Under the pieces are notes generated by a model. It was not told the DNA's origin, did not search any database, and saw nothing but the letters and a program-made list of their open reading frames with translations. The translations under genes and the position numbers were made by a program. Of a stretch of 64,000 bases of DNA, positions 401 through 43,392 are shown in pieces. This stretch comes from Geovibrio thiophilus (GTDB taxonomy: Bacteria > Chrysiogenota > Deferribacteres > Deferribacterales > Geovibrionaceae): assembly GCF_004087915.1 (NCBI RefSeq), contig NZ_CP035108.1:682001-746000 (forward strand). Direction: 5' to 3'. The first letter of the stretch is position 1; every line of letters starts with the position of its first letter.

Positions 401-480
401 GGTAAACCTCTTCATTTTCGTAAATCAGGGCAAGATTAAAGGGGAAAATTAAGGCATGGAGTTTCTTGGCATGCGTTTAA

Positions 481-613
481 TCCTCTTTCGTCCGGACTGT
501 ACCGTCGGCTTCGGAATCTCACCGAATCTGCTGACCTCCGCATCTGCGGAGCGCTCGCGGGCTTGCCTGTCGGGCTTACCGCCGGTGGGGAATTTCACCC
601 CGCCCTGAGAATA
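481..613 (-). promoter_or_regulatory. FMN riboswitch (RFN element) upstream of ribB
   Basis: Read on the minus strand this stretch has the conserved RFN blocks: a CAGGGCGGGGTGAAATTCCC start, CCGGCGGTAA, AGCCCGCGAGCG, GGTCAGCAGATTCGGTGAGA and CCGACGGTACAGTC, closing with a GAAAGAG arm. It lies between a sigma-70 promoter and ribB. I see no T-tracted terminator between aptamer and gene (401-480), only a weak GCATG/CATGC stem, so control may be at translation; that is inference. Confidence 0.95.
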
Positions 614-620
614 TGGTTCT

Positions 621-32055: not shown

Positions 32056-32128
32056 GAGATTGCTTCACTAACGTTCGCAATGACAGTAAATTATGTCACT
32101 GTGAGGAGCAGGGCTCCGCAGCAGTCTC
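32056..32128. repeat. imperfect palindromic interspersed repeat (GAGATTGC...GCAATGACA type)
   Basis: GAGATTGCTTC...GCAATGACAG (32056-32086) and TGTCACTGTGAGGAGC...GCAGTCTC (about 32094-32128) form an imperfect long palindrome. The sequence style (ATTGCGAGGAGC / GCAATGACA) is a small mobile palindrome type seen across many bacterial genomes. It abuts and seems to have replaced the 5' part of the first unit of the adjacent repeat array. Confidence 0.6.
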
Positions 32129-32566
32129 TGCTTTACAGACCGCGAGCGTGTATCTCAAATTTTTACGGATGGTAAATTTTGAATAATATAAATGGATGGT
32201 AAATTTGGAATAATCATGCACAACACTCCCATGGAAGGGGGTGCGCCGTGCGTAGCGAAGGTCTGTTTTACAGACCGCGAGCGTGTATTCAAAATTTCCA
32301 TGGATGGTAAATTTTGAATAATATAAATGGATGGTAAATTTGGAATAATCATGCACAACACCCCCATGGAAGGGGGTGCGCCGTGCGTAGCGAAGGTTTG
32401 TTTTACAGACCGCGAGCGTGTATCTCAAATTTTTACGGATGGTAAATTTTGAATAATCATGCACAACACTCCCATGGAAGGGGGTGCGCCGTGCGTAGCG
32501 AAGGTCTGTTTTACAGACCGCGAGCGTGTATTCAAAATTTCCATGGATGGTAAATTTTGAATAATA
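32129..32566 (+). repeat. array A of a three-hairpin repeat (one partial and three full units)
   Basis: Units start at 32216, 32351 and 32459, with a truncated unit before them. Each has hairpin 1 (ACTCCC/GGGGGT or ACCCCC/GGGGGT), an invariant TGCGCCGTGCGTAGCGAAGG, hairpin 2 (GGTCTGT/ACAGACC), an invariant CCGCGAGCGTGTAT and hairpin 3 (TTCAAAATTT/AAATTTTGAA around CCATGG). Units 0 and 1 carry an extra 27-bp copy of the hairpin 3 right arm. The array lies between two co-oriented kinase genes and ends 15 nt before the second one. The region 31930-32055 shows nothing further. Confidence 0.85.
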
Positions 32567-32581
32567 TAATAGGAGCTGACA

Positions 32582-34288
32582 ATGAGAATCTACATACGTC
32601 TTTTCTCTTTTATAATAATTCCGGTTATGTGCTTGACACTGCTGATGTTTTTTTCTTATCAGCGGCAGCTTCTCGCAAATGCCGAAGATGAGCTCATCCA
32701 CGAGCTTAAAAACAAATGGGAGATAATAAACGCATCGGGCGTTCTCGAACTCCCTCCCCATGAATCCCGTGCGAGGCTTGAATCCATAAGTCTCGCCACG
32801 CCTCTGAGAATAACTCTGATCAGTTCCGAAGGTGTGGTTATCGATGATTCTTACGTTGCGGCAGATTCCGTTCCGGATATTGAAAACCATAAATCCCGAC
32901 CGGAAATTCAGGATGCTTTTACAGAAGGCGAAGGAGTGGAGAAGCGTTTCAGCGCAACCACCGGACAGAGAATGATTTACTACGCAAAAGAGCTTAAGGA
33001 AGGCGGCAATGTTCTCCGCATAGCTTACCCCATGCTTTATGTGGAAAGCCTGAAGAAGAAGATGAAGGAGCAGGCATACGCAACGTTCTTCGGTCTGTTT
33101 GCCGTGCTGTTCGCGGTTCTGTGGTTCATAAGCCTGAGAGTCAGCAGACCCGTGGTGAAGATAAGCAGGATAGTTGAGGATATAGAAAGCGGCAGACCGC
33201 CCTTGTTTCCCATATTTAAAAGCAGGCTCATGGACAAGGTGGCAGGGCTGATTTACCGCACTTACAACGCACTGGAGAAGCAGAAGCATACGCTTGAGGC
33301 GGAAAAGAAAAAACTGAACGGTCTTGTAAATCTTCTTGAAGAGGGAATAATCAAGCTGGATGAAAACGGCAGGGTTGAGCTTGCCAACAAAAGAGCTGAA
33401 AAGATACTCGGCTGCTCCCTCCGGTACGGGGACGATGTTCTGGGCAGGGTCACGGACAGAGACGCCATAGTGCTGGCGAAGGAGATCCTCTCCTATGAAG
33501 CGGACTGCACAAAGGTCTACGAACTCCAGAATAAGGTTTATGAAATCTATGTGCGCTTCATGGAGGGCTCAAGAATTATAGTGCTCACGGATATAACAGA
33601 CAGCGAGCGCTACAGCACTTACAAAAGCGAGCTCATAACAAACATCTCTCACGAGCTGAAGACCCCGCTGGCGCTTGTCATGGGGTATGCGGAAACACTT
33701 ATGGAGCACCCCGACATGAAGCCGGAGGACAGAGAAAAATTCCTCGGCAAGGTCTACAAAGGCACAATGCAGCTTAATCAGCTTATTAATGATGTTATAG
33801 AGCTTCACAGATACGAGTCCTCATCAGAGGAAGATATTGAGGTCGGAGAGGAGACGGAACCCGCTGAATACGCGGAGGAGATCAGGGAGTATTACTCCGA
33901 TAAATTCGCACCCGGGATAAGGATTACCGCCGAAGGGGTGCCTGTGAAAATAAACAGGGCGCACCTGAGCAGTCTGGTGACAAACCTGATTGAGAACGCA
34001 GTCTCCTATTCCGGCGGGGATTATATTGAGGTGAGAATGCTCAGCACGGTGGACGAGTTCAGCCTTGACGTTGAGGACGGCGGTCCCGCCATACCCGCAG
34101 AGGAGAGGGAGCGGATCTTCGAGCGTTTCTACACCGTTTCCAAATCACGCAATAAGAATATATCAAGCACCGGACTGGGGCTCTCCATAGTGAAGCACAT
34201 ATGCAGGCTGTACAGAGGCGGAATAAGCCATGAAACAAACAGCAGGGGCGGCAACTCCTTCAAAGTGCGCATTACTCAGCCGGAATAA
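32582..34288 (+). CDS. phoR: PhoR-like sensor histidine kinase
   Basis: 568 residues. TM1 at about 7-26, periplasmic sensor (27-165), TM2 at about 168-188, a HAMP-like linker, PAS domain (about 245-340), HisKA with ISHELKTPLALVMGYAETLM and HATPase with LVTNLIENAVSYSG, EDGGPAIP and STGLGLSIVKHI. This architecture is that of PhoR. It is convergent with a Na/phosphate transporter gene that carries Pho-box-like repeats, which supports a phosphate role. No phoB lies beside it. GGAG lies 9 nt before the ATG, immediately after the repeat array. Confidence 0.75.
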   Translation: MRIYIRLFSFIIIPVMCLTLLMFFSYQRQLLANAEDELIHELKNKWEIINASGVLELPPHESRARLESISLATPLRITLISSEGVVIDDSYVAADSVPDIENHKSRPEIQDAFTEGEGVEKRFSATTGQRMIYYAKELKEGGNVLRIAYPMLYVESLKKKMKEQAYATFFGLFAVLFAVLWFISLRVSRPVVKISRIVEDIESGRPPLFPIFKSRLMDKVAGLIYRTYNALEKQKHTLEAEKKKLNGLVNLLEEGIIKLDENGRVELANKRAEKILGCSLRYGDDVLGRVTDRDAIVLAKEILSYEADCTKVYELQNKVYEIYVRFMEGSRIIVLTDITDSERYSTYKSELITNISHELKTPLALVMGYAETLMEHPDMKPEDREKFLGKVYKGTMQLNQLINDVIELHRYESSSEEDIEVGEETEPAEYAEEIREYYSDKFAPGIRITAEGVPVKINRAHLSSLVTNLIENAVSYSGGDYIEVRMLSTVDEFSLDVEDGGPAIPAEERERIFERFYTVSKSRNKNISSTGLGLSIVKHICRLYRGGISHETNSRGGNSFKVRITQPE

Positions 34289-34298
34289 ACGCCGTTTC

Positions 34299-34325
34299 CG
34301 GGGAGACTTAAAAAAGCTCTCCCCG
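34299..34325. terminator. bidirectional terminator between convergent phoR-like and Na/Pi genes
   Basis: CGGGGAGA (34299-34306) pairs with TCTCCCCG (34318-34325) around an A-rich loop; it sits between two convergent stop codons. Confidence 0.65.
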
Positions 34326-34333
34326 TAATACGC

Positions 34334-36001
34334 TCAATGAGGGTTGGCTACGGGGGCGTTTTCGCCCGCCATAAGCACCTGAGCGATGTTGAAAGTATGG
34401 TCGCCTATTTTCTCAAGGCAGTTGAGTATATCAACGTAAATAAGTCCGGCGTCTATGGTGCATTCCCCTGCGTTGAGCCTTTTAACATGGTTCTTCTTAA
34501 AGCGTTTTCTAAGGCTGTCTATTATGTCTTCATCTTCCGTGTCTATTTTTGATGTGCCGTTCATGTAGCTGTTCATGGTGTGCGTGTAGAATCTTTCCAC
34601 AACATCATAAATGTTTTTCAGCTCTTCATTGGCTTCGGGGGTGAAGACGATCTGTTTCTTTTTGATTTTTTTAATTGAGTTGTAGATACTTTCGGAATAG
34701 TCGCCTATTTTTTCCAGATTATGAACGACATGGTGCATTCTGTTGATCTGGTTTGCGGAGTTCTGGCTGATATTTTTCATGGACAGCTTAACAAGGAAAG
34801 CAGAAATCTCCTTATCGAACGTGTCCAGATACCCCTCAAGGGTTTTAACATCCGCAAGCCCTGACTCATCCCCATCGACAAGATATTTTCTTGTAGCCAC
34901 CACCATGCTTTCCGCATAGCCGGACATGCGCATAAGCTCCTTTTTTGCCTGCTCAACGGCTATGGCAGGTGTGCTCATTATATTGTCGCTGAGGCGCACC
35001 ATCCTGTTTTCATCCGGCTTGTCCGGCTTGATGATAACTTCGCAGAGTCTGGCAAGGTAATGTATAAACGGCAAAAACACGAGCATGTTGATCAGGTTGA
35101 ACATTGTATGAAGGTTCGCTATGTGGCGGGCGATATAAGGTTTGGAGCCGTCTGATGCCACAAAATCAGCGTCATGGGGAGTCATAATATTTACGAAATC
35201 CACCAGATAACGGAGTAAGAACAGCATGTAAACAACGCCTATGAAGTTGAGCAGAAAGTGACCGAAGGCAGCCTGCTTCGCCGTGCGGTTTGTGCCTATA
35301 GCGGCGAGATTTGCGGTGATTGTCGTACCTATGTTCTCTCCGAGAACAAGGGCGCAGGCGCCGTAAAAGTCTATGAGTCCTGTGGTGGCAAGTGCTATTG
35401 TTATACCTATCGTGGCTGAGGAGCTCTGAACGATTACTGTGAGAAGCGCCCCCGCAGTGACTGCCAGAATGGGGTTGCTGGAGAAGAATACGAACATATC
35501 TCTGAAACCGTCTGTTTTGCGCAGAGGCACGAAGCCGTCTTTCATTATCTCCATTCCTATGAAAAGCATTCCGAAGCCGAGGAGAATCTCGCCCCAGTAC
35601 TGCTTGGTTACGTCCTTGGAGAACATTTTCATCATCATGCCTATGGCTATGGCGGGGAGCGCGAACGCCTCAATATCAAAAGCGATGAGCTGCGCTGTGA
35701 CGGTCGTTCCGAGGTTTGCCCCCAGAACAACGCTGAGAGCCTGTGTGAGGTTCATCAGACCTGCGTTGACAAACCCCACCACCATTACGGTTGTGGCGGA
35801 GGAGCTTTGTATGACGGCGGTAACCGCCAGCCCGACAAATGTTCCTACAAATCTGTTGCTGGTGAGCTTTTCGAGGGCTTTTTTAAGCCCCTGTCCCGCG
35901 GATTTCTGAAGTGCTTCGGACATGAGCTTCATGCCGAAAATGAAAAGACCGAGACCGCCGAACAGTCCCGCGATCAGGTTAAACCAGTCTGATGACGTCA
36001 C
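34334..36001 (-). CDS. Na/phosphate cotransporter family protein with PhoU-like C-terminus
   Basis: 555 residues. The membrane part (1-310) contains the two inverted QSSSATT/QSSSATIG repeats that define the Na/Pi cotransporter family, each in a re-entrant segment. The C-terminal part (about 340-550) is helical and PhoU-like, with MHHVVHNLEKIGDYSESI and CLEKIGDHTFNIAQ motifs. It would move phosphate across the inner membrane. It starts with GTG after GGAG. A run of TGTCA half-sites upstream suggests PhoB control. Confidence 0.93.
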   Translation of the reverse strand: MTSSDWFNLIAGLFGGLGLFIFGMKLMSEALQKSAGQGLKKALEKLTSNRFVGTFVGLAVTAVIQSSSATTVMVVGFVNAGLMNLTQALSVVLGANLGTTVTAQLIAFDIEAFALPAIAIGMMMKMFSKDVTKQYWGEILLGFGMLFIGMEIMKDGFVPLRKTDGFRDMFVFFSSNPILAVTAGALLTVIVQSSSATIGITIALATTGLIDFYGACALVLGENIGTTITANLAAIGTNRTAKQAAFGHFLLNFIGVVYMLFLLRYLVDFVNIMTPHDADFVASDGSKPYIARHIANLHTMFNLINMLVFLPFIHYLARLCEVIIKPDKPDENRMVRLSDNIMSTPAIAVEQAKKELMRMSGYAESMVVATRKYLVDGDESGLADVKTLEGYLDTFDKEISAFLVKLSMKNISQNSANQINRMHHVVHNLEKIGDYSESIYNSIKKIKKKQIVFTPEANEELKNIYDVVERFYTHTMNSYMNGTSKIDTEDEDIIDSLRKRFKKNHVKRLNAGECTIDAGLIYVDILNCLEKIGDHTFNIAQVLMAGENAPVANPH

Positions 36002-36016
36002 AAGATTCTCCTTTGG

Positions 36017-36065
36017 ATGACAAAAATCTGACAGGAATATAACTGAATCCTGACAAATTTGACAA
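36017..36065 (-). promoter_or_regulatory. Pho-box-like TGTCA array and promoter of the Na/Pi transporter
   Basis: Minus-strand CTGTCAGATTTTTGTCAT (36017-36034) matches the 7-4-7 Pho-box layout. A second TTGTCA...TTGTCA pair lies at 36051-36065, with a TATATT -10 (36036-36041) about 18 nt from its distal TTGTCA. Because the best box overlaps the probable start site, its effect could be repression or use of another start. Confidence 0.5.
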
Positions 36066-36137
36066 CCTTAACATGAAGGGAGAATCAAAGTTTTTTAAGG
36101 AAACCGCCTAACGAACTGATGGTAATAAAGGCTTTAT

Positions 36138-36815
36138 TTACTTGCCCAGTACGCTGACGAGCATGAAGCTTTCTGCTTCGTTAAATGGTGTGCCTGCAAA
36201 ATCGCCGTAGTGGACACAGGATGAAAAACCTGCCTTAACTGCCGCTTCTGAAAGCTCTGTATGGGTGAGCGGATAAAGCATTACGGATGATGAGTATGCC
36301 TGCCCGCCTGCGGTGAGCGAACCGATGAACTCTATTCTGCCGTCCGTGTACCTGTATTCTCTTTTGAAGCGTACACCTTCCGTTTCGATAAGCGGAAGCT
36401 CAGCCGGACGCTTTTCAAGTATTCCGGCGTAGTTCAGGATCTGGATTACTGCTGTGCCGCCGTCTTTCAGCGAGCGGGCAAACCCGCTGAGGATGCTGCG
36501 TGCGTCTTCAGCGTCTGTGCAGTGGGCTAGGGTGTTGCCTATGCAGTATACAAGGGAGAACCTGCCCGAGAAGCTTTCCGGCAGGCGGCGCATGTCTCCG
36601 GCGGATATGTTTATGCGATACTTCATCAGCTCCGGCACATACTCAATCCCTTCGGCTTCGCAGCCTTCCTCATGGAACCTTTTTACGTAGGCGCCGGTGG
36701 CGCAGCCCACGTCCAGCACGCTTGTTCCGGCATATTTTCTGAGGAAGCCGAAGGTGGTTTCGGAAAAGGGGAAAACCTCATCGTAGGCTTTTGCGAGTAT
36801 GCGGTAGAACTCCAT
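36138..36815 (-). CDS. class I SAM-dependent methyltransferase, substrate unknown
   Basis: 225 residues. The SAM motif I is TSVLDVGCATGAYVKRF (about 31-47), motif II AEGIEYV, then an RRLPESFSG segment and LVYCIGNTLAH as motif IV. Downstream strands fit the class I fold. No neighbour identifies the substrate. It follows the barrel gene after 9 nt, so the two may be co-transcribed. Confidence 0.85.
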   Translation of the reverse strand: MEFYRILAKAYDEVFPFSETTFGFLRKYAGTSVLDVGCATGAYVKRFHEEGCEAEGIEYVPELMKYRINISAGDMRRLPESFSGRFSLVYCIGNTLAHCTDAEDARSILSGFARSLKDGGTAVIQILNYAGILEKRPAELPLIETEGVRFKREYRYTDGRIEFIGSLTAGGQAYSSSVMLYPLTHTELSEAAVKAGFSSCVHYGDFAGTPFNEAESFMLVSVLGK

Positions 36816-36824
36816 TTATCTCTC

Positions 36825-37688
36825 CTAGAACATTATGCGCAGTTCGGCGCTGCCTGTTGCTCCGCCGCTGATTTTTTTGTCGCGGAGAACTTCATCGTCA
36901 TCATCCAGAATATAGTATCTGGCGCTGGTGATCATCCCTGCGGAGAGAACAAGCTTGGCGTATTCGTAAATATCTTTCTCCGCCTCAAGGCTGACGGAGG
37001 CTATGCGTATTTTGAGCTCGGAATCCTCAGGATAATCTCTCCCGAGATAGTATGTGTCCGTGTCATTTGAGTATACCAGAGAAGTTCTGAAATCCCTGCT
37101 CCAGTGGTATGTTCCCTTCACTTTGCCCTGTCCCAGAACGGAGAGCGAGGCCTCAAAGCTTACCTTCTCCGCCGGTTTCCACTTAATCATATTAAGCGAA
37201 CCCGCCAGAATATAAAGGTTTGGGGCGGTGTAGGAATAGCCGAAGGCTGGCAGAATGTACATGTCGTCCAGAAGTTCTTTATTGGAGGCGACCAATCCGA
37301 GATAAAATTTATGCGGTCCGCTTTCGTAAACGTTTTTTGCAGCCATAATTCCGGCGAAATAACCGTCCGACTCTTCAAACGGCTCATCGGTTGATACTCC
37401 TGCTTTCAGGTTGAACAGGTATTCGGGTCCTGTTATATCAATCCCCAGCGCAGCCTGCGTAAGGGTATCGGGCATGAAGCCTGCCGCGTCGCTGAAATCG
37501 GTCATTTTATAATCCGCAGAGAGCTTGAGCTTATGGTTATTCGGTATATCGATTGTTTCGGAAACCTCCGCCCCGTAATACACGGCTCCCAGATCATCAG
37601 GGCTTGTGAAGCCGCCTTTGAAGCCGATTTCAGCGGCGGAAACAGGAAGCGTTAAAAAGCATAACAAAAAAGCTGCTGCGTATTTCAT
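36825..37688 (-). CDS. outer-membrane beta-barrel protein, unknown function
   Basis: 287 residues. Signal peptide YAAAFLLCFLTLPVSAA (cleavage before EIGFKG), then alternating amphipathic strands such as KLKLSADYKM, HKFYLGLVAS and VSLEAEKDIY. It ends AELRIMF, with the terminal Phe typical of BAM substrates. I recognise no family and cannot assign a ligand. Confidence 0.7.
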   Translation of the reverse strand: MKYAAAFLLCFLTLPVSAAEIGFKGGFTSPDDLGAVYYGAEVSETIDIPNNHKLKLSADYKMTDFSDAAGFMPDTLTQAALGIDITGPEYLFNLKAGVSTDEPFEESDGYFAGIMAAKNVYESGPHKFYLGLVASNKELLDDMYILPAFGYSYTAPNLYILAGSLNMIKWKPAEKVSFEASLSVLGQGKVKGTYHWSRDFRTSLVYSNDTDTYYLGRDYPEDSELKIRIASVSLEAEKDIYEYAKLVLSAGMITSARYYILDDDDEVLRDKKISGGATGSAELRIMF

Positions 37689-37837
37689 GAATTATTCTCC
37701 TTTTCCGGGTTTGTCATAAGTCTGAATATATTATATTATTTTATGCGGCATTTGTTGTTAATTTTACAGCTGCAATATTATTTAACAAAATAAGGACAAG
37801 GACGGCGGACAATAATTCACTTAAATGAGAGGCTGTC

Positions 37838-38560
37838 ATGACTAAATGTGTGCTTATAACAGGCGGAGCGGGCGGCATAGGTCTCGGGTGCGCCCTGTAT
37901 TTCGCTGATAAGGGCTGGTCTGTTTTCATCGCTGACATAAACGGGGAAGCCGGCAGGGACGCGGCGCAGAAGATCGGCGGCGCGGATTTCGCCTTGACGG
38001 ATGTTGCCTCGGAGGAGAGCGTGAAAGCCTGCGTTGAAAAATGCGTTCTCAGATTCGGGCGGATTGACGCCCTGATAAATAACGCAGGAATAGCGGATCC
38101 CTTTACGGAGCCGCTTGAGAAGCTCAGCCTTGAGCGCTGGAGCAGGATAATAAGCGTTAATCTCACGGGAGCCTTCCTTATGACCAAGCACTGCGCCGCG
38201 CACCTCAGAAGGGCAAACGGAGGCATAATCAACATGGCTTCCACAAGGGCTTTTCAGTCGGAGAAAAATTCAGAGAGCTACGCCGCGTCAAAGGGCGGTC
38301 TCTTGTCATTTACCCATGCCTCGGCAGTGAGTCTGGGACCTGATGTGAGGGTGAACTGCATATGCCCGGGATGGATAAATGTTTCCGGTTATCAGACATC
38401 GGAAAGGGATCACTCGCAGCACCCCGCCGGAAGAGTGGGAAAGGCGGAGGATATAGCGTCTCTGGCGTATTATCTGGTTTCGGATGAGGCGAAGTTCATC
38501 ACGGGACAGAGCTTCACAGCGGACGGCGGCATGACCGTTAAGATGGTATACGTGGACTAG
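37838..38560 (+). CDS. short-chain dehydrogenase/reductase
   Basis: 240 residues. The Rossmann motif is TGGAGGIGLG (about 8-17), then NNAGIA (about 78-83), catalytic Ser in NMASTRAF, and the YAASK motif supplying Tyr and Lys. GQSFTADGGMT near the end is typical. It uses NAD(P)H; the substrate is unknown. Its stop codon overlaps that of the convergent EAL gene (shared CTAG). Confidence 0.92.
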   Translation: MTKCVLITGGAGGIGLGCALYFADKGWSVFIADINGEAGRDAAQKIGGADFALTDVASEESVKACVEKCVLRFGRIDALINNAGIADPFTEPLEKLSLERWSRIISVNLTGAFLMTKHCAAHLRRANGGIINMASTRAFQSEKNSESYAASKGGLLSFTHASAVSLGPDVRVNCICPGWINVSGYQTSERDHSQHPAGRVGKAEDIASLAYYLVSDEAKFITGQSFTADGGMTVKMVYVD

Positions 38561-41289
38561 TCGATAAGCTCTTTTTCCGGTCTGCCTATGTGATAGCCCT
38601 GAGCATAGTCCACGCCGAGACTGGCTGCCGCCTTCAGAAGCTCTTCGCTGCTTATGAACTCGGCTATGGTTTTCAGCCCTGTCTGGCGGGCAAAGGTCAC
38701 AATGGAGCGGACTATCTCCGTCGCTCTCTCGTCCTCAAGCACGTGTCTCATTATGCCCGCGTCTATCTTAACATAATCGGCGTTCAGCTTAATGAGATAC
38801 TCAAAGTTGGAGTAGCCCGAACCGAAGTCGTCAATGGCTATTTTCACGCCCTGATTCTTGAGTTCCTTCAGTAGGGTGAGAACCTCCTCGAATGCCTGAA
38901 GCTCCTCAGTCTCAACTATTTCGATCACAAGCCTGTTCAGCACATCGTGGCTCTTGGCGTAAGTGAGCAGGTATTCCATGGTCTCGTCATTCATCAGGTC
39001 TTCTATGGTGAGGTTAATGGAAAACTCATGGGGCAGGTTTTTGAACTTCTGCACGGATTTTTCTATTATGATCAACGTAAGGCGGGGATATATCCTTGTT
39101 TTCTTACTTATATCCATGAAGTCGCCCGGAGTGAGTATTCTGCCGTTTTCATCCTCAGCCCGCATGAGGCATTCGTATTTTTCTATCCTGCCGCTTGCTA
39201 TGTTGTATATCGGCTGAAAGACAGGAAAAACTCCGTCATTCCTGATTGCCGCGTATATGCTTTTCAACACCGCTATGTCTTTTCCGTAACTCGCCGCCAT
39301 CTGGCTGTCGGCGGGGTCATATATGAAGAAGTCGGTATTTTTGACCTTGGCGTTGTTAAGCGCCATATCCGCATAGGCTAGAACATCCTTGCTGCCTTGA
39401 GCTATGCCGCTTCTCAGGGTTACGGGTATCTCCTCACCGTCTGTTTTCACCCCGGTGGAGGCTATGCTGTACTGAACATCTCTGATGTCGTTCATGAAAC
39501 GCTCAATATCCGTTCCGTCCGCCAGAACGGCGAAGGTGTCGGCGTTGACACGGTAGAAAGAGTAAGGCTTTCTGCTGAGCCTGCGAAAAATACCGGAGCC
39601 CACCTCACGTATTACCGCGTCCCCTGTCTTGTTTCCGTAGTGGTCGTTTATGGCGCTGAAACGGTCAATGTCGAGGAGCCCCAGAACAGGAACAGCTGTT
39701 TTTTCTATATCAGCCAGAAGCTTCATTCTGCTGCCGAGGCTGGTGAGCACATCCGTATTGAATATGTTTTCAAGCTTGTCTCTGTTTTCCATGAGCTCGG
39801 TTATGTCATGCCCTGAGGAGATGTATTCGATTATGCTGCCGTTTTCATCCTTAAGCGGAACAATGGTAGCGCTTTTGTAGTAGCTTGTGCCGTCCGCCTT
39901 TTTATTTTTCAGCACACCGTGCCATACCTTTCCGCTGCTGATTGTTTCCCACATTTTACGGAAGGTTTCCCTTGGTGTGGCGGGATGGCGCTCAACGTTG
40001 TGGGATTTGCCCATAACATCCTCTTTGGCGTAAAGAGTGGTGGAGCAGAACTTATCGTTGACGTAGTTTATCCGCCCTTGCAGGTCTGTCTTCGAGACGA
40101 TGGACGAAGCGTCCAGAACAAGCTTGTACTGCTCCAGCATGTTCATTTCACGCAGGCGGCTTCTCTCTATTTTACGGATATATATATTGATATATATGCT
40201 GATCAGCGCCGTTATCAGGATGATGATGCCGAGAACGGCGGCAATCCTTATGATGTCATTGTAGAAAATACCCTTCAGCTCGCTTCTTTCCCTGTCGAGA
40301 TAGGAATTAAAGTCGCTGGAGTAAAACCCTGTCGCCAGTATCCAGTTCCAGTCCGGAATTTTTGCGATGAAGGTGATCTTTTCCTCCGGCTCCTTCCCCT
40401 TAGGGGCTTCCCAGCGGTAGGAGACGTATGCCGAGCTCTCTGTCTTCAAGGCGGATGAAAACAGACCGCCGAGGTTTTTGCCGCTTGTATCAGCTATATC
40501 AAAAGTGCTCCTGTTTTCAAGCTCCTTCATTACAGGGTGCATGAGAATCCTGTAGTTCTCGTCCATGATGAAGAAATAGCCGTAGTCGTTGTAGCCGAAT
40601 CGTTCTTCTCTTAAAAGTTCCAGAATGTATTTTTTCAGTCCGGCGTCCTGATATTCGGTGTATGAGGCGGCTGCCACAAATAGCCCCAGCTCCGGCACTG
40701 CCTTTGCGAAGGCTATTTTCGGGTACAGGTCGTTTTGGTCTGAAAAGGGTTTAGACCAGTCGTAGGAGCCGAAGGTTTCGTTTTTCTCCCTGAGATCCGT
40801 AAGAAATTTTTCCAGTCCGCCGTTGCCTTCCACCGCATCCTGTATCTTTGTGCCTGTGAGAGCCTTGTTTCCGCCGTGGAAAATAAACCTGCCGCTGCGG
40901 TCAAAAACGAAGCAGTAGCCTGTTCCGCTGTCCCATTTTATGCTGTCCAGCGTCTGCGTGATTAAGGAGGCGGGGGCATCGACAGCGTATAGATTCTTTA
41001 AGATTTCCTCTGTGTTTTCAGCCCTGTTTTTCAGAAAGTCTTTTATCGCTTCCTGCCGCATGAGCCGCATGATCTCAATTTTTGCCGCTGCGCTGCGGAT
41101 CTCGGTCTTTATGTTCGCTTTCTGGGTTGCGATAAAGCGCTCGCGTATGTTTTCAGCGCGGGCTTCAAACTCCTTTTCCGCTTCATAAAATATAAAATAG
41201 CTTATAAGACATATAAACGACACAGAGATAAACAGCACATTAAGCATATTAAGTGTTGGAACAGAGACCTTCGGCTTGCGGTTTATCAT
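38557..41289 (-). CDS. Cache-PAS-GGDEF(degenerate)-EAL protein, probable c-di-GMP phosphodiesterase
   Basis: 910 residues. TM1 at about 12-33, a periplasmic double Cache-type sensor (40-330, with GTGYCFVFDRSGRF and GYFFIMDENYRI repeats), TM2 near 342-364, PAS (about 380-500), a GGDEF domain whose active site reads RVNADTF, so cyclase activity is very unlikely, and an EAL domain. The EAL motif is ECLMR, keeping the catalytic Glu; INLTIEDL, EIVETEEL, DDFGSGYSNF and VKIDAG are all intact. It probably degrades c-di-GMP in response to a small periplasmic ligand. Confidence 0.92.
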   Translation of the reverse strand: MINRKPKVSVPTLNMLNVLFISVSFICLISYFIFYEAEKEFEARAENIRERFIATQKANIKTEIRSAAAKIEIMRLMRQEAIKDFLKNRAENTEEILKNLYAVDAPASLITQTLDSIKWDSGTGYCFVFDRSGRFIFHGGNKALTGTKIQDAVEGNGGLEKFLTDLREKNETFGSYDWSKPFSDQNDLYPKIAFAKAVPELGLFVAAASYTEYQDAGLKKYILELLREERFGYNDYGYFFIMDENYRILMHPVMKELENRSTFDIADTSGKNLGGLFSSALKTESSAYVSYRWEAPKGKEPEEKITFIAKIPDWNWILATGFYSSDFNSYLDRERSELKGIFYNDIIRIAAVLGIIILITALISIYINIYIRKIERSRLREMNMLEQYKLVLDASSIVSKTDLQGRINYVNDKFCSTTLYAKEDVMGKSHNVERHPATPRETFRKMWETISSGKVWHGVLKNKKADGTSYYKSATIVPLKDENGSIIEYISSGHDITELMENRDKLENIFNTDVLTSLGSRMKLLADIEKTAVPVLGLLDIDRFSAINDHYGNKTGDAVIREVGSGIFRRLSRKPYSFYRVNADTFAVLADGTDIERFMNDIRDVQYSIASTGVKTDGEEIPVTLRSGIAQGSKDVLAYADMALNNAKVKNTDFFIYDPADSQMAASYGKDIAVLKSIYAAIRNDGVFPVFQPIYNIASGRIEKYECLMRAEDENGRILTPGDFMDISKKTRIYPRLTLIIIEKSVQKFKNLPHEFSINLTIEDLMNDETMEYLLTYAKSHDVLNRLVIEIVETEELQAFEEVLTLLKELKNQGVKIAIDDFGSGYSNFEYLIKLNADYVKIDAGIMRHVLEDERATEIVRSIVTFARQTGLKTIAEFISSEELLKAAASLGVDYAQGYHIGRPEKELID

Positions 41290-41321
41290 ATAAAATTACC
41301 TGTATCAGCGGATTCTAAAGG

Positions 41322-41349
41322 ATTATAGCCTAAATCGCCTCTTTTTCAA
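41322..41349 (-). promoter_or_regulatory. sigma-70 promoter of the EAL-domain gene
   Basis: Minus-strand TTGAAA (41344-41349), 16-nt spacer and consensus TATAAT (41322-41327), about 32 nt before the ATG at 41289. Confidence 0.75.
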
Positions 41350-41394
41350 TCAATAAAGCGGGGTGTAATACATAGTAAATCTATAGGTTTTATC

Positions 41395-41422
41395 TTGACA
41401 AAAGAAAAATATGGTTTATGCT
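41395..41422 (+). promoter_or_regulatory. sigma-70 promoter of the SAM-riboswitch/metY transcript
   Basis: TTGACA (41395-41400), 16-nt spacer and TATGCT (41417-41422); the riboswitch P1 stem begins 8 nt downstream. Confidence 0.7.
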
Positions 41423-41430
41423 TGAAATAT

Positions 41431-41539
41431 GCTTATCCAGAGCGGCTGAGGGACGGGCCCGATGAAGCCGCAGCAACCCTGCGCACGAAGGCGCAAAGGT
41501 GCTAACTCCCGCCCTTCATATTTTCAGGGGCAGATAGGC
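41431..41539 (+). promoter_or_regulatory. SAM-I (S-box) riboswitch controlling metY
   Basis: The P1 stem GCTTATC (41431-41437) pairs with GATAGGC (41533-41539). Between them are the conserved S-box elements AGAGCGGCTGAGGGACGGGC, CCGATGAAGCCGCAGCAACC and AAGGTGCTAACTCC. A terminator follows in the leader, so excess SAM should switch off the downstream methionine gene. Confidence 0.95.
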
Positions 41540-41573
41540 GGAGAAAATTCTCCGGTTATAGAAACTCCAAGCC

Positions 41574-41606
41574 CCCTGATCGTTTACCTGCGGTCAGGGT
41601 TTTTTT
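41574..41606 (+). terminator. riboswitch-controlled intrinsic terminator in the metY leader
   Basis: CCCTGATCG (41574-41582) pairs with CGGTCAGGG (41591-41599) with one wobble and is followed by seven T residues. It lies about 35 nt downstream of the SAM aptamer, the standard place for the expression platform. Confidence 0.9.
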
Positions 41607-41660
41607 ATAGCCGAATTATTCTCCCATCCGCATCCCCCGGCGTATCCAGAGGAGGACACT

Positions 41661-42935
41661 ATGCCGCACAGACAGGAAACCATAGCCGTAAGAGGGGGCT
41701 ATAAACCCGAAGAGCACAACGGTTCTATCACTGTTCCCATCTACCAGACGAACGCTTATCAGTTCAGGGATATTGAGCATGCCAGAAATCTGTTTGATCT
41801 CAAGGAGTTCGGGCATATATACACTCGGATCACCAACCCGACGACGGCAGTTCTGGAGGAAAGGCTCTGCCTGCTTGAGGGGGGAGTGCACGCAGTGGTT
41901 ACGTCATCCGGTCACTTTGCGGAGTTCGCCGCGATCAGCGTTATCGCAGGCGCAGGGGATGAAATAGTCTCCTCATCCAGACTCTACGGCGGCTCGGTGA
42001 ACCTGTTTACCTATTTCCTCGGTAACCTCGGCGTTAAGGTGAATATTGTTGATCAGTATGACCTTGCCGCAGTGGAAAACGCCATAAACGAAAAAACAAA
42101 GGCTCTTTTCATAGAAACCATAAGCAACCCCTCATGCGACATAGCGGACTTGGAGGCGTGGAGCGCAATCGCCAAAAAGCACAGGCTGCCTCTTATTGTT
42201 GACAGCACGCAGGCTACACCGCTTCTCTGCCGTCCGAAGGATTTCGGGGCGGATATAGTTATCCACTCGCTGACCAAATACATAGGCGGACACGCCAACT
42301 CAATGGGCGGAGTCGTGATCGACCTCGGAACATTCGACTGGGCAGGCTCCGGCAGGTTCCCGTCATTTACCGAGCCGAACCCCAGCTACCACGGAATTGT
42401 ATTCGCTGAAGCCTTCGGAGCGGCAGCATTCGGCGTGAAAGTGCGTGTTGAGGCTCTGAGGGATGCCGGCGGCTGCCTCTCGCCTCAGAACTCGTTTTAT
42501 ATACTTCAGGGTATCGAGACTCTTCATCTGAGGATCAAGGCTCATTCTGAAAACGCTCTTGCTCTCGCCCTGTTTTTGCGGGCTCATGAAAAGGTTGAGT
42601 GGGTGAACTACCCTGCGCTTCCCGACAGCCCCAACAAGGCAAGGGCGGATAAATATCTGAAAGGATACGGTTCAGGAGTGCTGAGCTTCGGAGTGAAAGG
42701 CGGTTTGGACGCTGCCGTAACGGTTATTGAGGCGCTTAAGATAGCTAACCATGTGGCGAATTTCGCCGATGTGCGGACCCTCGTCACTCACCCCGCAAGC
42801 ACCAGCCACAGACAGCTTACCAGCGAAGGCAGGAAAGCCGCAGGCTCACCCGACGAGCTTATCCGTGTTTCAGTAGGCATCGAACACATCGAAGACATCA
42901 AGGAAGACTTTGCCCAAGCTTTGGCGCAGATATAA
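41661..42935 (+). CDS. metY: O-acetylhomoserine aminocarboxypropyltransferase/cysteine synthase family enzyme
   Basis: 424 residues, PLP-dependent Cys/Met metabolism family. The Lys that binds PLP is in SLTKYIGGH, with ETISNPSCDIADL and VDSTQATPLLCRP as cofactor-contact motifs and SVGIEHIEDIKED near the end. It makes homocysteine from O-acetylhomoserine and sulfide, which agrees with the SAM-I riboswitch upstream. GGAGG precedes the ATG. The stop codon lies in the first bases of the repeat array that follows. Confidence 0.95.
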   Translation: MPHRQETIAVRGGYKPEEHNGSITVPIYQTNAYQFRDIEHARNLFDLKEFGHIYTRITNPTTAVLEERLCLLEGGVHAVVTSSGHFAEFAAISVIAGAGDEIVSSSRLYGGSVNLFTYFLGNLGVKVNIVDQYDLAAVENAINEKTKALFIETISNPSCDIADLEAWSAIAKKHRLPLIVDSTQATPLLCRPKDFGADIVIHSLTKYIGGHANSMGGVVIDLGTFDWAGSGRFPSFTEPNPSYHGIVFAEAFGAAAFGVKVRVEALRDAGGCLSPQNSFYILQGIETLHLRIKAHSENALALALFLRAHEKVEWVNYPALPDSPNKARADKYLKGYGSGVLSFGVKGGLDAAVTVIEALKIANHVANFADVRTLVTHPASTSHRQLTSEGRKAAGSPDELIRVSVGIEHIEDIKEDFAQALAQI

Positions 42936-43386
42936 AAAACGCTCCCAAGGATGGGAGTGCGCCGTGCGAAGCGAAGGCGGGTTTATCCCGCCGCGAGCGT
43001 GTATAAAAAATTCCCATGGAGGGAGAATTTTTTATAGTTAAGACAGAGCAGGTATAAAAAACGCTCCCAAGGATGGGAGTGCGCCGTGCGAAGCGAAGGC
43101 GGGTTTATCCCGCCGCGAGCGTGTATAAAAAATTCCCACGGAAGGAGAATTTTTTATAGTTAAGACAGATGGGAGTGCGCCGTGCGAAGCGAAGGCGGGT
43201 TTATCCCGCCGCGAGCGTGTATAAAAAATTCCCATGGAGGGAGAATTTTTTATAGTTAAGGCAGAGCAGGTATAAAAAACGCTCCCAAGGATGGGAGCGC
43301 GCCGTGCGAAGCGAAGGCGGGTTTATCCCGCCGCGAGCGTGTATAAAAAATTCCCACGGAGGGAGAATTTTTTATAGTTAAGACAG
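42931..43386 (+). repeat. array B of the three-hairpin repeat (four units, 122-bp period)
   Basis: Units run about 42931-43046, 43053-43168, 43169-43266 (5' truncated by 26 bp) and 43271-43386. Each has hairpin 1 CTCCC/GGGAG, the invariant TGCGCCGTGCGAAGCGAAGG, hairpin 2 GGCGGG/CCCGCC, the invariant CCGCGAGCGTGTAT and hairpin 3 TATAAAAAATTC/GAATTTTTTATA, then TTAAGACAG. The conserved strands match array A, while all three stems differ with pairing kept. It fills the gap between convergent genes. Confidence 0.9.
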
Positions 43387-43392
43387 ACGGGT

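Follow-up and report, generated by a model that had tools for sequence, protein, structure and literature searches.

Integron attC sites are known for a conserved structure with free stem sequence and a strand-specific bulge, and hairpins that are recombined as single-stranded DNA (ssDNA) carry a bulge that distinguishes the strands. The CsrA sponges known so far are single small RNA (sRNA) genes. According to published reports, CsrA/RsmA sites consist of ANGGA in hairpin loops, and the preferred site is RUACARGGAUGU with the GGA in such a loop; the hairpin of RsmZ-2 has the hexaloop AAGGAU, and the loop of RsmY-1 is five bases long (PMC4347634, PMC6692469, PMC3791407). Here we analyse a stretch of 64,000 nt from Geovibrio thiophilus (the window; contig NZ_CP035108.1, positions 682,001 to 746,000), in which an earlier note had described two arrays, A and B, of an interspersed three-hairpin repeat. 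The family is far larger than these two arrays, and the element is mobile. Its A(N)GGA outer loops, its co-orientation with gene 3′ ends, its long flanking repeats and its presence in two families of the order had all escaped the earlier note. We consider the unit a candidate RNA ligand of CsrA.

Structure and copy number of the repeat family

Each unit comprises about 100 nt in the order hairpin 1 (H1), linker 1, hairpin 2 (H2), linker 2, hairpin 3 (H3) and tail. H1 has a stem of about 7 bp and the loop ANGGAN. H2 has a stem of 6–7 bp and loops such as TTTAT or CTTTG; of 213 units, 211 have an H2 with a total length of 17 nt. H3, with a stem of about 7–12 bp, carries the loop ANGGAN or ACAGGATGT, and its 3′ side contains a single unpaired base in 87 of 100 cases. 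Linker 1, the 17 bases CGCCGTGCGNAGCGAAG, and linker 2, CGCGAGCGTGTAT, are nearly invariant, and the tail lies near ATTATTAAGACA. Units inside one array are nearly identical. As a separate observation, the H3 of the last unit is wholly unlike the internal H3s in L016, L019, L102, L118, L122 and other loci, as if a hairpin and tail were gained with each duplication.

The genome consists of one contig of 2,997,552 bases. The pattern CCGTGCGNAGCGAAGG...CCGCGAGCGTGTAT matches it exactly 31 times, and the backwards control gives no match. With at most one mismatch, CGCCGTGCGNAGCGAAG has 307 matches (159 forward, 148 reverse); two congeneric genomes contain 141 and 112 such matches and one sister-genus genome contains 3, and the backwards control yielded none in each of the nine genomes searched. 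The covariance model R1 matched every one of the 150 candidates scored over its full length (worst E 6e-16), so that the own genome has at least 150 such matches. When matches to E 1 were considered in about 431 kb of own-genome DNA, 155 of 170 scored above 50 bits, and decayed copies are few. Since the copies are intact, we rejected the idea that the arrays are degraded ends of an insertion sequence. The "seven or so units" of the two arrays are thus real, but they represent a small sample of the family.

R1 also detects weaker relatives in sister genera and in one other family. Most of the distant relatives inspected retain H1-H2-H3 and the GGA loops, with linker 1 now CGCTTGCGNNAGCG and linker 2 AGAGCGT-like; in a few (e.g. 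L057, L067, L068) H1 lacks the GGA or the layout is altered. In the covariance-model search of the phylum, which the earlier note had proposed, a model of the wider class (R2), built on 21 hand-picked units from those inspected, matches 22 of 50 phylum genomes. Eleven of these belong to the own family, which has 12 genomes in the set, and the other 11 to one further family, with 15. The genome of one sister genus (G023; loci L056, L066, L074, L202) has its own divergent version, with 59 R1 matches to E 0.01 and some alternating orientations. As regards other phyla, an exact-pattern scan of genome contigs, which may omit the own and near genomes, returned 40 stretches. Thirty-five of these came from Deferribacterales bacterium Deferri_01 (G022), one of the two congeners; the remaining five were single matches in unrelated genomes, and the layout was absent on inspection. 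Literature listings and the openings of abstracts apparently contain no paper describing the element.

Covariation of the stems was compared with shuffled and slid controls, neither of which fully models phylogeny. In a set of 21 inspected units it amounted to 0.505 versus 0.182 after shuffling, and none of 500 shuffles reached this value. For H1 and H2 of 89 non-redundant first units from three species it was 0.673, versus 0.196 for shuffled and at most 0.148 for slid controls, with 323 versus 96 cells changed on both sides. These 89 were drawn from 104 first units, 15 of which were omitted by hand (H1 unalignable, second unit, position near an edge, or shortening of the list). The 21 units underlying R2 gave 0.585 versus 0.206. 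An alignment-free count revealed 62 distinct H2 sequences in 105 arrays, nearly all of them complementary. Compensatory stem changes, as well as selection for a folded single strand, had been proposed from a handful of units; both are supported for the family at large, with covariation well above the two kinds of control. Although the shuffles ignore relatedness, inheritance of one change is an unlikely source of the signal, because the stems are so diverse. About 11 gene ends that are occupied in two species were compared by eye; at these, the linkers match fully or almost fully and most H2 stems differ (e.g. L010/L180). At array B and L147/L071 the H2 stems were retained between species. In the well-paired H1/H2 rows of the 89-unit set, G-T mismatches outnumber A-C mismatches by 9 to 2, in the direction of the displayed strand, which are too few counts to build on.

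Loop motifs, gene neighbourhood and a possible link to CsrA

The outer loops are constant, and the N of their motif A(N)GGA varies freely. Among the first units with a detectable hairpin (104 examined), A(N)GGA stands in a five- or six-base loop in 83 of 98 H1 and 95 of 100 H3 hairpins. The longer motif CA(N)GGANG is present in 74 of 89 H1 regions and 81 of 89 H3 regions, the background in the scanned DNA being about 0.02 per 20 nt. GGA loops and layout are kept in other genera and in another family despite differing linkers. In the own genome a single CsrA match was obtained (77 aa), overlapping a gene that we read from its sequence as FliW-like; the nearest solved relatives of this CsrA are CsrA/RsmE proteins, including RsmE of the 2jpp series. 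CsrA is found in all 22 carrier genomes versus 20 of 28 non-carriers among the 50 phylum genomes (hypergeometric estimate about 0.006, phylogeny ignored).

Gene neighbours were called with a longest-open-reading-frame heuristic, independently of annotation, and the 68 arrays with a called neighbour on both sides were considered. The array is co-oriented with the upstream gene in 57 cases (p about 1e-8). Twenty of these 57 start between −3 and +7 nt from the upstream stop codon, where 6.0 are expected; in 20,000 simulations a count of 20 never arose. Of the 68 arrays, 64 adjoin one stop codon or more, and 36 lie between co-directional genes, some of them a few nucleotides upstream of a start codon.

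Because of the co-oriented 3′ position, the RNA-type covariation and the constant CsrA-type loops, we lean, with reservations, towards reading the unit as a mobile element of structured RNA, one that places paired CsrA sites in 3′ untranslated regions (UTRs) and between cistrons and serves as a dispersed CsrA ligand. Once inserted, a unit would become part of the 3′ UTR or intercistronic region of its host transcript. H1 and H3 would each expose a single A(N)GGA loop on a stable stem. Along the sequence the two are separated by about 70 nt, which include H2 and the linkers, and one CsrA dimer could bridge this pair. Hundreds of unit-bearing transcripts might then bind CsrA as a dispersed sponge, and/or CsrA may be recruited to where the host mRNA ends and to the gene that follows in the operon.

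Several points weigh against this view. In the arrays with a 90–97-nt period (L014, L110, L116, L143, L145, L147) H1 is present only in the first unit, and the repeated part consists of linker 1, H2, linker 2 and H3. A(N)GGA is absent from about 15% of the H1 and 5% of the H3 loops (ATAGAT in L015, ACTGAC in L016). Eleven of the 68 arrays differ in orientation from their upstream gene; seven of these end 1–33 nt away from the stop codon of an opposite-strand gene. CsrA also occurs without the element, in G018 and 19 other genomes, and the co-occurrence statistic is uncorrected for phylogeny. Transcription of the units, CsrA binding and a regulatory outcome are all things that we infer from sequence. 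Finally, we know of no need for RNA antagonists in FliW-type systems. The FliW-type bacterium Campylobacter jejuni is said to be without antagonising sRNAs (PMC6692469).

Mobility of the element

Synteny with both congeners (G021 and G022) covers most of the window and allows occupied and empty sites to be compared. Site A is filled in G. thiophilus (G000) as well as in G021, and G022 has no unit there. Site B is filled in all three genomes, with 4, 1 and 1 units in G000, G021 and G022, respectively. Site C is empty in G000, with one unit in G021 and three in G022. Direct repeats of 14–69 nt (score ≥14) flank 21 of 110 arrays (single units: 11/41) and none of 330 control pairs; three of the 21 (L156, L125, L149) have the look of other repeats or of fragments of the element. 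Among the 17 cases listed, the downstream repeat copy begins with GA right after the tail in 7. Locus L018 has four units and five flank copies; therefore, the flank behaves like a target duplication and the array like an amplification of it.

The element is probably non-autonomous as well, as the earlier note had suggested for the case that it is mobile. A TnpA_REP-like partner elsewhere in the genome had also been envisaged. However, the family of Y1 transposases and TnpA_REP (PF01797) has no match in the own genome, with 5 of 14 control genomes positive, and TnpA_REP/RAYT was rejected as the mover. Reverse transcriptase (RVT_1, PF00078) gave no match in G000 or G021 and one in G022, so that the own genome yielded no candidate mover of this kind, either. 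The long duplications, for which no enzyme is known, suggest a way of moving that has not been described before.

The filled and empty sites and the flanking direct repeats also speak for an ssDNA mobile element of the REP/BIME or attC kind, whose hairpins are read as DNA by a recombinase or nuclease, whose structure is kept by mobility alone and whose RNA has no role. The 307 copies on both chromosome strands and the H3 bulge, which could distinguish the strands, fit this explanation, too. We nevertheless regard it as unlikely, given the lack of a Y1 transposase in the own genome, an orientation that tracks transcription, and A(N)GGA loops that mobility does not explain. Moreover, copies at orthologous gene ends hold their linkers and pairing despite changes in most stems, and few copies are decayed, which argues for selection after insertion.

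Returning to the CsrA ligand, a further-reaching proposal can be made tentatively. The mobile element may spread CsrA-binding RNA modules, every insertion providing one more transcript with a paired CsrA site at its 3′ end, and the free CsrA pool of a FliW-type host might be set by a transposon-built, distributed RNA sponge. The undescribed mechanism would have a fixed 3′ edge and duplications of about 15–70 bp that often start with GA, and would involve neither a Y1 transposase nor a reverse transcriptase.

The arrays within the window

Coordinates below are positions within the window, unless prefixed C1 or given for an L-numbered locus. Both arrays are present on the forward strand, and all strands and stem pairs quoted for them were recovered, including the GGTTTGT/ACAGACC unit. 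Array A (32127–32576) consists of three complete units and a 5′-truncated one. The latter (32127–32198) retains the 3′ half of H2, linker 2 and H3, and was recognised from its sequence, with a weak model match at 32079–32198 (31.7 bits). Unit 1 (32222–32333; R1 117.8 bits) shows the full succession of H1, linker CGCCGTGCGTAGCGAAG, H2, linker CGCGAGCGTGTAT, H3 and tail. Unit 2 (32357–32463; 98.8 bits) has one G-T wobble in H2, and unit 3 (32465–32576; 117.5 bits) ends 5 nt upstream of the next gene (ATG at 32582). Histidine-kinase genes flank the array on both sides; the one directly 3′ (32582–34288, forward) contains HATPase_c and HisKA domains.

Array B (42938–43389) has four units. The first (42938–43049; R1 120.7 bits) starts 2 nt past the stop codon of a metY-like gene, and the second (43060–43171; 120 bits) is followed by a third (43157–43267) without the 5′ arm of H1, identified from its sequence and a genome match at C1:725129-725267. 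The fourth (43278–43389; 121.3 bits) ends near the convergent stop codon of a sigma-54 regulator gene. The metY-like gene (41661–42935, forward) encodes a pyridoxal phosphate enzyme of Cys/Met metabolism (PF01053, E 9.4e-125) and is preceded by a SAM riboswitch (41430–41540, forward; RF00162, 83.8 bits). Site C (34289–34333) is a terminator-like hairpin without a unit in this genome.

Immediate positions past stop codons would also suit a stabiliser or terminator of mRNA 3′ ends, like the REPs that follow genes in E. coli; the loop motifs would then have nothing to do with CsrA. Array B contains 6 terminator-like sites (GC stem plus T run) versus 1.1 expected, and at site C the terminator-like hairpin of G000 stands where relatives have units. 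Yet array A has no such site, many arrays (36 of 68) lie between co-directional genes, some just before a start codon, and constant loops and linkers with free stems are left unexplained; we regard this function as unlikely. Neutral palindrome correction, in which template switching at inverted repeats rewrites one arm from the other and creates compensation without selection, would account for near-perfect pairing of most H2 stems and near-identical units within arrays, but is very improbable because it would not keep the loops, the linkers, the H2 length and the H3 bulge, nor a layout conserved across families.

Two further features were noted. A second family of short palindromic repeats, of the GAGATTGCTTCAC...GCAATGACA type, occurs at 32056–32085 and in L009, L105, L109 and L134; such palindromes adjoin or sit within several arrays and are sometimes duplicated together with them. 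At the gathering threshold, Rfam recognises in the window the SAM riboswitch and an FMN riboswitch (476–616, reverse strand, 120 bits), and nothing else.

Comparison with known systems

The long, variable flanking duplications and the fixed 3′ edge recall retroelements of the SINE/LINE type, which differ in that no RVT_1 accompanies the element in G000 or G021. Integron attC sites share the conserved structure, the free stem sequence and the strand-specific bulge; in contrast, there are no cassettes between the units, and no attC boxes were recognised by eye, no attC or integrase search having been made. REP/BIME elements with TnpA_REP (RAYT) are likewise interspersed hairpin repeats that form arrays at gene 3′ ends. 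Our element differs from them by the missing Y1 transposase in its own genome, its free stems, fixed linkers and long flanking duplications, and its A(N)GGA loops.

The nearest catalogued RNA, if weakly so, is TD-2 (Rfam RF03162, clan CL00124). Its length is similar, the loops of its two outer hairpins read AUGGAU and ACGGAU, and it aligns end to end with the unit, whereas the middle remains unaligned. Unit 1 of array A gives a full-length, weak TD-2 score of 25.7 bits, and the best in the genus is 31.4. Because the scores lie below the gathering threshold of 48.7 bits (none of 12 genomes exceeds it), we do not assign the element to TD-2. The literature searched contained no paper on TD-1 or TD-2. 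We attribute the remaining weak Rfam matches (tfoR, anti-hemB, plastid families, ST7-AS2 etc.) to chance. An AT-rich, near-perfect hairpin in L029 (1653–1704), sub-threshold against plastid 3′ UTR families, is probably a terminator-like palindrome.

With its free stems and frozen linkers, the family is well suited as natural material for studying RNA covariation. If the proposed role is true, a 300-copy mobile RNA with paired CsrA-type loops would connect transposition with the way in which a global regulon evolves. The sequestering sRNAs CsrB/CsrC and RsmX/Y/Z resemble the unit in that they, too, have several hairpins whose loops of five or six bases contain A(N)GGA. They are, however, encoded by one or a few dedicated sRNA genes, whereas the element is present as about 300 mobile copies behind protein genes and possesses H2 and invariant linkers.

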